From positions 1 through 37,382 of the forward strand of contig JAADFB010000028.1 of assembly GCA_013153095.1 (NCBI GenBank): a stretch of DNA of 37,382 nt, given 5' to 3'. This stretch comes from Campylobacterota bacterium. Its GTDB lineage: Bacteria > Campylobacterota > Campylobacteria > Campylobacterales > Nitratiruptoraceae. Both the position numbers and the translations under genes were made by a program. A model generated the notes under the pieces. That model was given only the letters and a program-made list of their open reading frames with translations, was not told the DNA's origin and did not search any database. Shown piece by piece: positions 22,907 to 30,598 of the stretch; position 1 is the stretch's first letter, and every line of letters begins with the position of its first letter.

Positions 22907-23569
22907 GTGAAAAAAGGCTTAAAGATGACCAAAAAGGCTTTTAGAGAGTTATGTAAACAACGACTCTTAAAAGCTAAAAATAAAAACTCTCTAACTAAAA
23001 AAGTGGAGCGAAATTTAGCTTTTCTTATAGAGAGATTAAATTCCAGAAGTCTTTTAGTTTTTCTTCCCCTAAAACACGAACCTCAACTTTATTCTTACTT
23101 TTCTAAACTTAGAATTAACAAAAAGGTTTATGTTCCCTTTATGCAAGGTGAAAGTTTCAAAATGGTAAAATTGAGATTACCAGTATATAAAAAACGGTTT
23201 GGAATTAGGGAGCCCCTAAACTCCTTTTTCAAACCCAAAATCGATACCGCTATTGTTCCCGTTCTTGGGGTAGATGGGGATTTTAGAAGGATCGGTTTTG
23301 GGATGGGGATGTATGACCGTTTTTTTGCCTCTTTACCTTACCGACCAACTATAATTTTTATTCAACAACGGGAGTGTATTAGTGCCAAAAAGGTTGGAGA
23401 GAGGTTTGATATTCAAGGTGATTTTTTAGTTACCCCAAAACAAATATGGATAAGAGGGAATAGCGATGTGGGTAGAGATTTTAGCAGGAAGTTCTGCCGC
23501 GATAGTAAGTGGCGCTGTAGGATATATCCTATCAAAGAAGTTAGAAAAAGAGAAACTAAAAATCTATGA
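22907..23569 (+). CDS. 5-formyltetrahydrofolate cyclo-ligase family protein
   Basis: 'VFLPLKHEPQL', 'VYVPFMQGESFKMVKL', 'IVPVLGVDGDFRRIGFGMGMYDRFFA'. GTG 22907 has upstream GGGGAGG at good spacing; ATG 22925 is the alternative start. Confidence 0.85.
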   Translation: MKKGLKMTKKAFRELCKQRLLKAKNKNSLTKKVERNLAFLIERLNSRSLLVFLPLKHEPQLYSYFSKLRINKKVYVPFMQGESFKMVKLRLPVYKKRFGIREPLNSFFKPKIDTAIVPVLGVDGDFRRIGFGMGMYDRFFASLPYRPTIIFIQQRECISAKKVGERFDIQGDFLVTPKQIWIRGNSDVGRDFSRKFCRDSKWRCRIYPIKEVRKRETKNL

Positions 23570-25034
23570 GGAGCAAGCTAAAGCAAAAGCTAGGGCGATC
23601 GAACATGAAGCTGAAAAAACCCTTCAAGAAGCTCAATTAGAGATTCAAAAAGCGGAGTTGGAATTAAAAAGGGAGTTTGAGAAGCAGTTAGAAGCCCTTA
23701 AAAAAACTTATGATAAACGGTTTTTGGAGCTGGTAGAAAAAGAGGAATCGCTCAAGCAGATGTTTAAAGACGAGCTAAAACATATCACTTTAGAAAAGCA
23801 GGAGTTAAAAAATGAAAGGGAAGAGTTAAAAAAGCTACAAGAGGAATATGAACGTTTAAAACAGGAGTATGAAAAAAAATATAATGAGGTTTTAGAGGCA
23901 CTTCAAAAGCAAGCCGGTTTAACTATGGAGGAGGCTAGAGAGCTTATTTTACAAAAAGCAACTGAAGAAAGTAGAGGGGAGATAGCAAATATCGTAAGAA
24001 AGTATGAGGAGGAGGCTAAAAGAGAAGCTAAACAACGAGCTAATTATATCTTAGCCCAAGCTACTACCAGGTATGCTGGGGATTTTGCAGCGGAGAGGTT
24101 GATAAACACTGTAAGTATCCCAAGCGAAGATATAAAAGGTAGAATTATTGGGAAAGAGGGAAGGAATATAAAAACTTTAGAGATGCTTTTGGGAGTGGAT
24201 GTGATAATTGATGATACTCCCAATGCGATAATTTTAAGCTCATTTAACCTCTATCGGCGCGCGATTGCGACTAAAGTTATTGAGTTGTTGGTAGAAGATG
24301 GAAGGATTCAACCCGCTAGAATCGAAGAGATTTACGAGAAAGTAAAAGAGGAGTTTGATCAACAACTCTTAGAAGAAGGGGAAGATATTGTGATCGATTT
24401 GGGGGTTGGAACTATCCATCCTGAGCTGGTAAAACTTATTGGAAGGTTGAAATTTAGAGCCAGTTATGGACAAAACGCTTTAGGACACTCTTTAGAAGTT
24501 GCCCACATGGCTGGGATTATGGCGGCTGAGATGGGAGGAGATGAGGTTTTAGCAAAGCGGGCAGGATTACTTCACGACATCGGTAAAGCTTTAACACACG
24601 AATATAGTGGCAGCCACGTAGATTTAGGGGCTGAGATATGTAAACGGTATAAAGAACCCGATGTTGTAATCAATGCTATCTATGCCCATCACGGACACGA
24701 AGAAGCAAAAAGTATCGAAGCGGCGGCAGTGTGTGCAGCTGATACTTTAAGTGCAGCTAGACCAGGGGCTAGGAGAGAGGTGTTAGAAGCGTTTTTAAGA
24801 AGAGTTCAACATATTGAAGAGATCGCCTTAAGTAAGCCTGGAGTTAAGAAAGCGTACGCAATAAATGCAGGAAGAGAGATTAGAGTAATCGTAAATGCGG
24901 ATTTAGTTAGCGATAATGAGTCGGTGCTTTTAGCTAGGGAGATCGCTAAAGAGATAGAGAGCGCAGTTCAATATCCTGGAGAGATAAAAGTTAATGTGAT
25001 TAGGGAAAATAGGGCGATCGATTTTGCTAGATAA
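23466..25034 (+). CDS. rny: Ribonuclease Y
   Basis: N-terminal TM, long coiled coil, KH motif 'IKGRIIGKEGRNIKTLEMLLGVDVIIDDTP', HD domain 'LGHSLEVAHMAGIMA...AGLLHDIGKALTHEYSGSHVDLG'. Confidence 0.96.
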   Translation: MWVEILAGSSAAIVSGAVGYILSKKLEKEKLKIYEEQAKAKARAIEHEAEKTLQEAQLEIQKAELELKREFEKQLEALKKTYDKRFLELVEKEESLKQMFKDELKHITLEKQELKNEREELKKLQEEYERLKQEYEKKYNEVLEALQKQAGLTMEEARELILQKATEESRGEIANIVRKYEEEAKREAKQRANYILAQATTRYAGDFAAERLINTVSIPSEDIKGRIIGKEGRNIKTLEMLLGVDVIIDDTPNAIILSSFNLYRRAIATKVIELLVEDGRIQPARIEEIYEKVKEEFDQQLLEEGEDIVIDLGVGTIHPELVKLIGRLKFRASYGQNALGHSLEVAHMAGIMAAEMGGDEVLAKRAGLLHDIGKALTHEYSGSHVDLGAEICKRYKEPDVVINAIYAHHGHEEAKSIEAAAVCAADTLSAARPGARREVLEAFLRRVQHIEEIALSKPGVKKAYAINAGREIRVIVNADLVSDNESVLLAREIAKEIESAVQYPGEIKVNVIRENRAIDFAR

Positions 25035-25058
25035 GGAAAGTTTTAAAAAGAATTGATT

Positions 25059-25099
25059 AAAATAAGCCTTTCATTAATTTTTTTTGAAGGGCTTATTTT
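25059..25099 (+). promoter_or_regulatory. Long hairpin directly upstream of ATG 25100 (terminator of rny and/or SD-sequestering leader)
   Basis: AAAATAAGCCTTTC / GAAGGGCTTATTTT: 14 bp stem with one G-U pair, loop ATTAATTTTTTTT; the 3' arm contains the SD-like GAAGGG 8 nt before ATG. Confidence 0.75.
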
Positions 25100-25582
25100 A
25101 TGAAAAAACTTCTTTTAACCTCTCTCCTTCTAACCTCCTCCTTTTGTGCAGAAATTTGGGTAGGTGTAGGGAAAATTGGCGGAGATATAGTAACTAGTAC
25201 TGAGTATGCTATCGGTGTAGAAGAGGAGTTTGAGCTGTTTGAGGAGTGGCTTACAGGAGTTGATGTAAGTTATAAACACGCAAAAGTCAAAGAGGAGGAA
25301 GAGGAGGAGAGCTTTAAAGTTTGGGAAGATGCGGTAGATGTAGAAGGGTTGATTGGAAAAGAGTTTGATGAGAAAAATAAACTTTTTGGAGTTGTTGGGT
25401 TAAGATATGGGCAAAGTGATGGGGATGATTTTTACGGTGTAGGAGTGGGAGCGGAATTTCAGCACCTTTTAGAGGATGGAGTAGTAGTAAGCATAGATAT
25501 AGTTAGACATTTTATGAAAAATGAGGATGATCGTTACTATCAAACTAACACCTTGATGTTTAAAGTGGGATATGAGTTTTAA
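25100..25582 (+). CDS. Small outer-membrane beta-barrel-like protein
   Basis: Signal peptide MKKLLLTSLLLTSSFCA, acidic repeat-like segment KEEEEEE, C-terminus '...LMFKVGYEF' ending in Phe. Confidence 0.65.
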   Translation: MKKLLLTSLLLTSSFCAEIWVGVGKIGGDIVTSTEYAIGVEEEFELFEEWLTGVDVSYKHAKVKEEEEEESFKVWEDAVDVEGLIGKEFDEKNKLFGVVGLRYGQSDGDDFYGVGVGAEFQHLLEDGVVVSIDIVRHFMKNEDDRYYQTNTLMFKVGYEF

Positions 25583-25593
25583 AAAGGGGAATT

Positions 25594-26472
25594 ATGAGTA
25601 AAGCGGGATTTGTAGCGGTTGTGGGAAGACCTAACGCGGGTAAAAGTACCCTTTTAAACTGGCTTTTAGGGGAGAAGATAGCGCTAGTTAGTCATAAAGC
25701 CCAAGCTACTAGAAAACGGTTATACGCTATTGTGATGCATAAAGATGCCCAAATTATCTTTATCGACACTCCCGGTTTACACCAAAAAGAGCAGCTTTTA
25801 AACAAGTTTATGTTGGAAGAGGCTCTTAAAGCGATAGGGGATTGCGATCTTATTTTGTTTTTAGCTCCCGTAAACGATCCTATCACCCATTATGAAAAGT
25901 TTTTAGAGCTTTCTAAAGGGAAAAAGCACATATTAGTACTAACCAAAATCGATCTAGTTTCAAAAGAGAAACTTTTACAAAAAATAGCGGAGTATCAAAA
26001 GTTTCAAGATAAATTTTTAGAACTAGTCCCCATTTCGGTTAAGAAAAATATCGGTAAAGAGGAACTTTTAGATACGATCGTAAAATATCTCCCAGAACAC
26101 CCCTACTACTATGATCCCGAACTTTTAACTACCGAAAATGTTAGAGATATTTACAAGGAGCTTATTCGAGAGGCTATCTTTAAGAATGTAAGTGATGAGA
26201 TCCCTTACGAGAGTGATGTGGTAATTGAAAAGATTGAGGAGGGGGAAAAGTTGGATAAGGTGTATGCGATGATTATTGTAGAAAAACCCTCCCAAAAGGG
26301 GATTATCATAGGAAAAAAAGGGGAAACTATCAAAAGAATAGGCAAAGATGCGCGTAAACTCTTAGAGCAGTTTAGCCAAAAAAAGATATATCTAGAGCTT
26401 TTTGTTGTGGTTAAGAAAGGATGGACAAAAAGTAAAAAAGAGTTGGAGTCGCTTGGATATATTTTTAGCTAA
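25594..26472 (+). CDS. era: GTPase Era
   Basis: 'VVGRPNAGKSTLLNWLLGEKIALVSHKAQATRKR', 'FIDTPGLH', 'LTKIDL', KH motif 'SQKGIIIGKKGETIKRIGKDARKLLEQF'. Confidence 0.96.
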   Translation: MSKAGFVAVVGRPNAGKSTLLNWLLGEKIALVSHKAQATRKRLYAIVMHKDAQIIFIDTPGLHQKEQLLNKFMLEEALKAIGDCDLILFLAPVNDPITHYEKFLELSKGKKHILVLTKIDLVSKEKLLQKIAEYQKFQDKFLELVPISVKKNIGKEELLDTIVKYLPEHPYYYDPELLTTENVRDIYKELIREAIFKNVSDEIPYESDVVIEKIEEGEKLDKVYAMIIVEKPSQKGIIIGKKGETIKRIGKDARKLLEQFSQKKIYLELFVVVKKGWTKSKKELESLGYIFS

Positions 26473-26545: not shown

Positions 26546-28066
26546 ATGCAAAAAGAGAAGTTTAAAAGTATAGTCACAATCAATCCGTATAATAATACAA
26601 CTTTTTTGTGTGAAAATTCTGTTTTAAAAAAGTTCCCCTCTTTAAAATTTTACAATAAAAACTTTTATATCTCCTTCCTCCAAACTAAAGATGTGATAGT
26701 TGCTACCATCTCAGTTAGCAAAAATATCCCGGAAGAGGATTTAAGGGATGTTTTAGAACTTAGAGTTTATGAGGAGTTGGATTTAGACCAAACAATAGAG
26801 TATAAGATTGAGTTTGAGGAGATTCCAACCCCTTCTCATGAAAAAGAGCGAAAATTTCAAGTTTTTGTAACAGAACCTACCTTAATTACCGATACTTTTG
26901 AACATATTATCCAAAAAGTTCACTATATCGACGCGATAATCCCTGCACCTTTACTTTTTAAACCGCTTTACACTCAAAAAATAATAGAAAGTGATGAAAC
27001 TCACCTTTTTCTTTACTTTCAAAAAACGGATACCTTTTTAAGTATTTACCATTCGGGGACACTTCTTTATAGCAAATCTTTAAAATACTCTTTTACCGAT
27101 ATAGCTGAAAAACTTAGCGAATTAAAAGGGGAAAATGTTGAGGTAGAAGAGGTTATGAAAACCCTCTCTCAGGAGGGGTTAAAGATAGCCGATCTAGATA
27201 CGATGCATTACTATATGCAGATTTTTAGTGAGATTTTTATGTACCTCAACGATATTATCATCTACGCCAAGAGGGTTAACAATTTAGAGATTATCGATAA
27301 GATTTTTATTAGCTCCGAGATAGGTTTTATTAGGGGGATAGAAGAGTACGCCCAAACCTATCTTGCGCAGGAGGCGTTTGATTTTAATTTCAATTACGGG
27401 ATAGATGCACAAGAGCCTTATATTGAAGACCTTCACTTTTTGATGGTTCTATGTGCAAAAGATATTATCGAGTACGGTTACCCTTATGCAAACTTAACTC
27501 TTTTTAAACGACTTCCTCCTCTTTTTAAACGCCCTTCTGGAGAGTTGTTGATTCTTTCTTTAGTTAGTTTAATTTTGGCATTGGCTTACCCTATTTATAA
27601 CTTTTTATATGCGTATAAACTCAAATATGACAGTGCGATCTTACATCAGCAATATCCAGCTATCCACGCAAAACGGGTCGCTTTAGAAACTCAAATTAAC
27701 GATCTAAAAAAGAGGATGGAGGAGTTAAAGAAAAAGATAGAGTTAAAAAAGAAGGAGTTAGATACTAGGCAAAGCATCCTTAACGCCATCTATGATAAAA
27801 AGGTAAACTATGTGATGAAGGGGGTAACCTTAGCTCAACTCTCCCAGGATATGGTCGATCATAAACTCAAAACCACCTCTATAGATAACAACCAAACCCT
27901 CTTTAACTTCAAAGTTACCGCTTTGGATGAAAAAAGTATCACCCAGTTCATAAAATTTATCAGTGAGCATCGAGACGATCGTTACGATATTAGCACTAAA
28001 GAGATAAATCGAACCGATCCAAATAGCACAGTTTATACCAGTACTTTAGAGGTTGAGGTTCGATGA
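26546..28066 (+). CDS. MshI/GspL-like pilus assembly protein (PilM-like N-half fused to PilN-like C-half)
   Basis: 506 aa; soluble N-half, single TM 'LLILSLVSLILALAYPIYNFLYAY', coiled coil 'ALETQINDLKKRMEELKKKIELKKKELDTR', and PilN-like C-terminus; first gene of the secretin/ATPase operon. Confidence 0.65.
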   Translation: MQKEKFKSIVTINPYNNTTFLCENSVLKKFPSLKFYNKNFYISFLQTKDVIVATISVSKNIPEEDLRDVLELRVYEELDLDQTIEYKIEFEEIPTPSHEKERKFQVFVTEPTLITDTFEHIIQKVHYIDAIIPAPLLFKPLYTQKIIESDETHLFLYFQKTDTFLSIYHSGTLLYSKSLKYSFTDIAEKLSELKGENVEVEEVMKTLSQEGLKIADLDTMHYYMQIFSEIFMYLNDIIIYAKRVNNLEIIDKIFISSEIGFIRGIEEYAQTYLAQEAFDFNFNYGIDAQEPYIEDLHFLMVLCAKDIIEYGYPYANLTLFKRLPPLFKRPSGELLILSLVSLILALAYPIYNFLYAYKLKYDSAILHQQYPAIHAKRVALETQINDLKKRMEELKKKIELKKKELDTRQSILNAIYDKKVNYVMKGVTLAQLSQDMVDHKLKTTSIDNNQTLFNFKVTALDEKSITQFIKFISEHRDDRYDISTKEINRTDPNSTVYTSTLEVEVR

Positions 28067-28695
28067 GTTTAAGCAGAAGTATTGATAAGTTTTTTGAACA
28101 AAGAAAACCTAGTGAGAAGCGGTTAATCTATTTAACTATAGTGTTTGGTACGTTAGCTCTTTCCTATCAATATCTTTTCCCTTATAGTGAGAAGTTTTTA
28201 AAACAGGCTAAACGGGAGAAGGAGAAGATAGAGGAGAAGATAAATATCGATAAAAGTTATATCCAATCTATGACGGTTAACGGGGATCAATTTTTCTACA
28301 TCAAACAGTACAACCGCCAACTCAACGAGCTTAAAAAAAGCTTTATGGCGATAAATGACAAAAAAGAGTATCTAGATCAAAAGATAAAAGAGCTATCCTA
28401 TCTCCTTTACAATAAGAAACGGTGGGCGCAATTTTTAAACTCCCTTACCCAAAAAGCGGAAAAAAATGGGGTAGAGATCGATTATATACTTAACAACTTT
28501 ATGGATGTCCCAAAAAGTTTTGGGCACGTCTTAGAAGTTGAAATAGGATGTAAGGGGGATTTTAAAAACTTGATTGCGTATTTAAACTCCATTGAGCAAA
28601 GCGATTTGGTTGTAGATATTTATGAGATGAAGATGTTGGGTAAAGAGCCAATAGAAACAACTATAAAGGTATCGGTATGGGGATTAAACTATTAG
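28063..28695 (+). CDS. MshJ/PilO-like inner-membrane protein
   Basis: Single N-terminal TM, coiled coil, and PilO-like 'RWAQFLNSLTQKAEKNGVEIDYILNNF...VLEVEIGCKGDFKNLIAYLNSIEQSDLVVDIYEMKM'; ATGA overlap with upstream gene. Confidence 0.7.
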   Translation: MSLSRSIDKFFEQRKPSEKRLIYLTIVFGTLALSYQYLFPYSEKFLKQAKREKEKIEEKINIDKSYIQSMTVNGDQFFYIKQYNRQLNELKKSFMAINDKKEYLDQKIKELSYLLYNKKRWAQFLNSLTQKAEKNGVEIDYILNNFMDVPKSFGHVLEVEIGCKGDFKNLIAYLNSIEQSDLVVDIYEMKMLGKEPIETTIKVSVWGLNY

Positions 28696-29096
28696 CACCT
28701 CTTTTAGCTATCTCGCTGGTATGGGGGAACTATCCCGATATCGATAGGTTAATAGAAAAGGTTAAAGTGAGACGGGTAGGGTTATCTACTAAAGAGATTG
28801 CCCAGTTAAAAAACCCTTTCATTAGTAAGAAAAAGCTAAAAAAGGTTATTAAGGTCAAAAAAGTTAAACGGACAAAAAAGAAAAGATTTAGAGCAACTCT
28901 TTACTCTATCTTCAACAACCGAGCCAAAATTAACGGTCGCTGGAGAAAGATAGGGGATCGTATAGGTCCTTATAGGTTGGTTTTTATCAACGCTAAAGGG
29001 GGATATGTAGTTTTAAGACAGGGAAGAAAAGAATTAAAGCTATTCCTGCCCCGTCGAACCCGTAAAGTTAACCTAATCTCAAGGGGGAATAGTTGA
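28677..29096 (+). CDS. MshK/PilP-like periplasmic protein
   Basis: Signal sequence, basic Lys-rich linker, then 'RATLYSIFNNRAKINGRWRKIGDRIGPYRLVFINAKGGYVVLRQGRKELKLFL', a PilP/GspC-HR-like fold. Confidence 0.6.
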   Translation: MGIKLLAPLLAISLVWGNYPDIDRLIEKVKVRRVGLSTKEIAQLKNPFISKKKLKKVIKVKKVKRTKKKRFRATLYSIFNNRAKINGRWRKIGDRIGPYRLVFINAKGGYVVLRQGRKELKLFLPRRTRKVNLISRGNS

Positions 29097-30598
29097 TGAA
29101 AAAACTGTTTTTACTTCTTTTTATCTCCCTAACCCTTTTAGCAAACTCTTGTGAAAGGAGACTTTTTACCTTAAAAAGTGCGCCGGGGATAAGAATTATT
29201 GAGTTTTTAGATAATCTTGCAGATGAATGTTCCTTAACCCTTCTTTTAAAAGATAAATTTGCAAAAAAGAAGGTGTATGCTAAGCTAAGTCGACTCAATA
29301 TCAAAAACGCCACTTTAGAGGAGTTGTTAGATCTAATCTTACGAGAAAACGATTTAAATTACGAGTTAGAGGGAAATATCTTAAAAGTTAACTATCTTAT
29401 CACTAAAACTTTTCATATCGACTATGTTATCTCAAAGCGAAAAGGGGAAACTGTAACCGATGCTTCCGTAGATGTGGGGGCTACTCAAACGGGAATGACT
29501 ACAAAAGCTGGGATTAGCAAAGGTAAAGGGAGTGGAGGTAGAGGAAGAGATGTAAATAAGATAACTTCCATTGAGGAGTTTGATTTTTGGCAAAACATTC
29601 AAGAGGAGATCTATCAGCTTTTAAACCGCCCTGAAGATGAGTATAAAGCTCCTGAGCCTATTATCAATCCCAAAGCTGGATTAGTTACCGTTACAGCTAC
29701 GGCTAAACAGATAGAGCGGGTTGAAAACTATATCGATACCATAGAAGATCGACTTCATAAAGAGGTATTGATCGACGTTTCTATTTTGGCGGTTTTTTAT
29801 AACAAAAATATCACTACCGGAATAGATTGGAGTAGGTTTAGTTTACTCTTGAATGGAGGATATAATAATGATGGCTCTTTTTCTCCTACAACTCCAATCG
29901 CTACCTATCAGGGGGTTGGGGTTGGAGGAAATTTTAAAGAGATCGAATTTACTTCCACCGCAACCACAATTATCAACTCCTCTCTCCATCTTTCGGCTAT
30001 AATCGATTTTTTACAAAGAAATGGAAAAGTTGTTACCCTCTCCAATCCAAAAATCCTAACTTTAAACAATCAGCCTGCAATTATCTCTATTGGGGATACT
30101 ATTAATTACAACGTTCCCACCTCTATTACTATCAATAGTAATAGCAATTTGGGAGAGAAAGCTTATACCCCTTCTTCTATCTTTGTGGGAATTTTGTTAA
30201 ATATTACCCCTGAAATAACCCAACGAAGAGATATAATTTTAAGAATTAACCCTTCCATTTCAGAATTAAGAAATCCCGAAGATTTAAACAAAAACACCCC
30301 TAGCGGTTTTAGAGAGATAGCTCCAGATACCAAAGAGAAAAAACTCTCTTCTGTGGTTAAAGTAAGAGATGGGTCAACCCTAATTTTAGGAGGTTTAATA
30401 TCCAATACGAGGAACTTTATGGTTAATGGGGTACCAATTTTAAAAGATATACCTATTTTTGGAAATCTTTTTAAAAGTGTAAAGAAAGAAGATCAGCGGT
30501 TTGAACTGGTGTTTGTAATCAAGCCTAAAATTATCGATTCGGATACTTTCAACTTAAGTCTTAAAGATTTTGGATACGATAGACTAGATGTTAAGTAG
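29096..30598 (+). CDS. MshL-type secretin (type II/III secretion, pilus biogenesis)
   Basis: Signal peptide, N-domain, 'VEVL(I)DVSILAVFYNKN', 'NGKVVTLSNPKILTLNNQPAIISIGD', 'VVKVRDGSTLILGGLISNTRNFMVNGVPILKDIPIFGNLFKSVKKEDQRFELVFVIKPKII'. TGATG overlap puts the start at 29096. Confidence 0.9.
   Translation: MKKLFLLLFISLTLLANSCERRLFTLKSAPGIRIIEFLDNLADECSLTLLLKDKFAKKKVYAKLSRLNIKNATLEELLDLILRENDLNYELEGNILKVNYLITKTFHIDYVISKRKGETVTDASVDVGATQTGMTTKAGISKGKGSGGRGRDVNKITSIEEFDFWQNIQEEIYQLLNRPEDEYKAPEPIINPKAGLVTVTATAKQIERVENYIDTIEDRLHKEVLIDVSILAVFYNKNITTGIDWSRFSLLLNGGYNNDGSFSPTTPIATYQGVGVGGNFKEIEFTSTATTIINSSLHLSAIIDFLQRNGKVVTLSNPKILTLNNQPAIISIGDTINYNVPTSITINSNSNLGEKAYTPSSIFVGILLNITPEITQRRDIILRINPSISELRNPEDLNKNTPSGFREIAPDTKEKKLSSVVKVRDGSTLILGGLISNTRNFMVNGVPILKDIPIFGNLFKSVKKEDQRFELVFVIKPKIIDSDTFNLSLKDFGYDRLDVK

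Follow-up and report, generated by a model that had tools for sequence, protein, structure and literature searches.

The start of a small outer-membrane beta-barrel protein gene (hereafter the OMP gene) that follows rny is buried in a hairpin whose 5′ arm also carries the best predicted promoter of the gene. We read this hairpin as a translational insulator that would silence only the rny read-through RNA for the OMP gene, and give this reading, the best of those considered, a probability of about 50%; chance and a plain terminator are its main rivals. Computation yielded the hairpin, the score of its promoter, folds of RNAs that include or lack the 5′ arm and a pair of sister loci; the transcription start, the read-through and the repression are what we infer.

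The window (the whole stretch of DNA that was analysed, 37,382 nucleotides) comes from an assembly of the genus Nitratiruptor that is 71% complete and in 92 contigs, and all counts within this genome rest on ~60% of the assembly. Nitratiruptor is a deep-sea vent bacterium, the cultured members of which grow near 55 °C. The OMP gene lies 65 nt after rny and 11 nt before era:

23466–25034, + strand: rny, encoding RNase Y (522 aa; Pfam RNase_Y_N, KH_1 and HD), the upstream gene and proposed source of read-through
25100–25582, + strand: OMP gene, encoding a small outer-membrane beta-barrel protein (160 aa), assigned from its N-terminus, predicted strands and fold matches
25594–26472, + strand: era, encoding a GTPase (MMR_HSR1 and KH_2 domains)

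RNase Y showed 82–88% identity to that of other members of the genus. The N-terminus of the OMP protein is hydrophobic and signal-like, and its structure model has 8 predicted strands (pLDDT 70) with fold matches to OmpX, Ail and PagL-like proteins; the match to OMP_b-brl was weak and under the curated cut-off. The era gene is probably co-transcribed with the OMP gene. The run of genes 3′ of era (26546–30598 of the window) resembles a type IV or MSHA-type pilus cluster, the last gene of which encodes a secretin-like protein.

The elements found ahead of the OMP gene were as follows:

25058–25073, + strand: 5′ arm of the hairpin (RNA folding)
25058–25063, + strand: predicted sigma-70 −10 box TAAAAT, lying within the 5′ arm (promoter matrix score 10.0)
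25070–25073, + strand: predicted start of OMP transcription, on the last bases of the 5′ arm, placed 12–15 nt past the start of the −10 hexamer
25074–25084, + strand: hairpin loop, 11 nt (RNA folding)
25085–25100, + strand: 3′ arm of the hairpin, the last base of which is the A of the ATG (RNA folding)
25086–25091, + strand: Shine-Dalgarno-like (SD) GAAGGG (sequence)

The initial annotation had described a 14-bp stem with a 13-nt loop, the 3′ arm of which ended just before the ATG at 25100. Its two arms, AAAATAAGCCTTTC (25059–25072) and GAAGGGCTTATTTT (25086–25099), were found in these positions; of their 14 base pairs, 13 are Watson-Crick and one is U-G. However, the helix extends by 1 bp at either end to give 16 bp (4 of them G-C pairs and one U-G) around an 11-nt loop, and the A of the ATG is itself paired. 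GAAGGG was, as annotated, the sole SD-like stretch ahead of the ATG and lies within the 3′ arm. The hairpin has a folding energy of −19.1 kcal/mol at 37 °C and −12.4 kcal/mol at 55 °C, and the fold of the region has a z-score of −3.9 (0 of 200 shuffles were equally good). Among 290 start regions (−60 to +3) in ~295 kb of the same genome it ranked as the second strongest. In the folding model of the full-length (read-through) RNA, the probability that GAAGGG is unpaired was ≤0.01 between 37 °C and 60 °C; the SD and the start codon of the OMP gene are thus buried in this RNA.

Promoters were scored with a position matrix built from 116 promoters of this genome, a training set from which the OMP gene itself was left out. 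The best site between 24800 and 25110 was the TAAAAT at 25058–25063, with a score of 10.0 against −2.4 for the runner-up; as the training set was chosen by −10-like hexamers, this score expresses likeness to such sites and not to measured promoters. Scores of the training promoters had quartiles of 9.0 and 14.2, and the TAAAAT at 25058 ranks at their 31st percentile. Among all positions of the genome 0.02% scored as high, as did 0.7% of the starts within operons. The result was unchanged when both sister loci were also dropped from the training set. Across the 116 training promoters, A was enriched at +12/+13. Because transcription is predicted to start on the last bases of the 5′ arm, mRNA made from the gene's own promoter should be without the hairpin. 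Folding of RNAs that begin at 25069–25073 agreed with this: the hairpin cannot form, and the energies were only −3.6 to −3.0 kcal/mol at 37 °C and 0 to about −0.6 kcal/mol at 55 °C, although CU-rich codons within the OMP gene may offer the SD a weak pairing partner. The predicted leader of 27–30 nt is near the mean of 30.6 nt in C. jejuni (PMC3847290). By prediction only, the own promoter would start an OMP RNA that is missing the 5′ arm and has its ribosome binding site (RBS) free.

According to the insulator reading, RNA polymerase would start the OMP(-era) mRNA at 25070–25073 from the TAAAAT in the 5′ arm, and this mRNA, with a leader of ~27–30 nt lacking the 5′ arm, would have its SD free and be translated into OMP. 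The RNA that reads through from rny would contain both arms and fold into the 16-bp hairpin, such that the SD and start codon would be hidden and no OMP translated from it. Transcription of some read-through RNA may additionally stop at the U-rich 3′ arm; termination and SD hiding would each spare the RNA from the own promoter. The envelope gene would thereby be insulated from housekeeping read-through.

Similar hairpins were searched for by pairing the segment −65 to −23 of each gene with its segment −20 to +3, and the null expectation was obtained by swapping segments between genes within each class, so that the composition by position was preserved. Stems of at least 16 bp, a threshold that like the gene classes was picked after the data were seen, were found at 3 of 101 tandem starts (gap of at least 40) versus 0.02–0.03 expected by swapping. 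None was found at 327 in-operon or 144 divergent starts, and random positions gave 2 in 14963. Without the gene in the window there were 2 versus ~0.02 expected (Poisson P of 2e-4). The two other loci were:

L087:9892: sister locus of a gene for a secreted EF-hand-like protein, after sufE; arms of 16–18 bp, −10 box in the loop and predicted transcription start past the 5′ arm
L081:15890: sister locus of a gene for a DUF389 protein, after accC; arms of 16–18 bp, −10 box in the loop and predicted transcription start past the 5′ arm

The protein encoded at L087:9892–10992 and its homologues form a paralogous family with a shared N-terminal domain, ~170 residues long, that contains the EF-hand-like motif NGKFYMYDFNHDGVIARNDWIY. 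A single Nitratiruptor genome had as many as 12 matches to this domain, which often opens very large frames (700–1675 aa). Separately, the other tandem starts with stems of 12–13 bp (L112:4996, L136:8020 and L086:8055) also precede exported or membrane-like proteins, namely an outer-membrane efflux-like protein, a Tat-signal flavoprotein-like protein and a membrane protein.

No excess of stems was seen in the three related genomes sampled (G001, G006 and G007) or in 250 kb of E. coli K-12, and at the L081 and L087 orthologues that could be read the hairpins of the sister loci were not kept. If this is a real class, it is therefore a small and young one. It is a tentative and rather improbable proposal that a small class of promoter-nested, SD-hiding hairpins serves as chromosomal translational insulators for envelope or exported-protein genes behind housekeeping operons (rny-OMP, accC-DUF389 and sufE-EF-hand) in a genome poor in tandem-gap intrinsic terminators.

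Divergent genes showed no excess of stems of at least 14 bp despite many inverted repeats in their leaders, which may represent the SD of one gene paired with that of its divergent neighbour; facing SD sequences of divergent genes would in that case be a source of false leader hairpins. Such leader inverted repeats were present at L113:206–276 (amrS, the upstream neighbour of which is off the contig), L104:11801 and L096:875–1613.

Outside this assembly, family-wide and GTDB scans found the OMP gene only in Nitratiruptor sp. EPR_DSHV_bin 51 (G006), where the protein is 58% identical and the gene likewise sits after rny. At the position that matches the TAAAAT at 25058, this genome has ATTGATCTATAAT (matrix score 7.0) and a perfect TATAAT, and its SD is AAAGG. 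No comparable hairpin was found there by sequence or folding, this being the only orthologous leader. In most other Nitratiruptor genomes the sequence behind rny is without the OMP gene and reads as a convergent gene instead, one that resembles the cation-efflux gene located next to the OMP gene, on its 3′ side, in EPR_DSHV_bin 51. One complete genome has a further rny-like copy (G003:C1:1746266–1746872), decayed and interrupted by 8 stops, which adjoins the amrS-like copies of that genome. Roughly one in two Nitratiruptor genomes has a second copy of the amrS-like radical SAM gene, before or after the first (L161–L179; 60–63% identical to the query).

These comparisons bear on a chance or neutral inverted repeat, which we regard as an unlikely explanation that nevertheless has to be taken seriously. 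Long stems would crop up occasionally because T-rich promoter DNA is complementary in composition to the A/G-rich SD, and swapping over all 654 starts of every kind gave an expectation of 0.36 stems of at least 16 bp, so that a stem at a single site is unusual yet possible by chance. Chance persists as an explanation for the single site since the class was unseen in the related genomes and the hairpin is not conserved at orthologues. Against it stand the excess at tandem starts under same-class swapping, the mixed composition of the arm AAGCCUUUC, and the finding that local inverted repeats are not generally in excess at random positions.

The A-tract, the stem AAGCCUUUC/GAAGGGCUU and the U-rich stretch that follows could alternatively form an intrinsic terminator of rny, alone or alongside SD hiding, and this we consider rather improbable. 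With its A-tract ahead of the stem and U-rich 3′ arm, which ends in UUUU, the site is like an intrinsic terminator that overlaps the next RBS, and it matched a terminator pattern when loops of up to 14 nt were allowed (a stem of 7–11 bp, then CTTATTT/TTATTTT). It differs from such a terminator in its long loop of 11 nt, the only 4 G-C pairs in its stem, its interrupted U's and the promoter in its 5′ arm, and there is no U-tract at the sister hairpin at L087:9892. Judged by a G+C-rich stem with a short loop and 5 or more T among the next 8 bases, the site was not returned by the standard scan (loops of up to 8 nt) and passed when loops of up to 14 nt were allowed. Terminator-like sites were scarce in the tandem gaps of the genome (2–4 of 85). 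Additionally, era lies downstream on the same strand, and its expression requires transcription beyond the site, which the internal promoter would supply.

A ligand-free translational switch of the OMP mRNA, either an RNA thermometer or an RNase Y-controlled leader as the initial annotation had suggested, is very improbable. Pairing of the SD and start codon in the full-length RNA would suit a switch, whereas the own-promoter mRNA is predicted to be without the 5′ arm. Both observations that the initial annotation named as refuting it (an mRNA without the 5′ arm and no conserved pairing in close relatives) are indicated: the best promoter points to a start on the last bases of the 5′ arm, and the sole orthologous leader carries no such hairpin. 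The thermometer was rejected: folding at several temperatures left the model stem fully paired at 55–75 °C, and there was no Rfam match in the window. An autoregulatory element of RNase Y was also rejected, as the same hairpin was not seen 3′ of rny in the other Nitratiruptor genomes checked. A DNA operator, with a dimeric regulator on both arms around the promoter, is highly unlikely too: the arms flank the predicted transcription start and the 5′ arm overlaps the −10 box, but the arm sequences differ among the three loci, and the other AAGCC/GGCTT pairs inspected in the genome were nearly all coding, with no comparable promoter.

Compact, terminator-poor genomes must separate neighbouring transcription units, and a promoter-enclosing hairpin would do so at translation. 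Furthermore, the main mRNA of a gene can lack a strong SD-hiding hairpin that is evident in the genome sequence, which is of concern for riboswitch and thermometer prediction from sequence.

Hairpin-nested promoters are known from the T4 late genes I-TevI, I-TevII, I-TevIII, segB, soc and e and from mobE of phage Aeh1; in this type, a stable hairpin masks the RBS solely on transcripts from upstream promoters, whereas the gene's own promoter starts inside it and leaves the RBS free (PMC2988022). The insulator reading of the OMP hairpin resembles these in that the RBS would be hidden in read-through RNA and the predicted own start lies within the structure. It differs in its cellular chromosome, its sigma-70-type promoter and the lack of a phage timing programme, and in that the transcription start and repression are here predicted only. 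In IS10/Tn10 (Davis, Simons and Kleckner 1985) and IS200 (Beuzon et al. 1999), read-through RNA reportedly folds such that the downstream RBS is blocked, as predicted here; the gene protected here would, however, encode an envelope protein at the boundary of a housekeeping operon and not a transposase. A short literature search for chromosomal cases at ordinary operon boundaries returned nothing close. The arrangement is thus known from phage and transposons and is here predicted on a cellular chromosome, in an unusual setting.
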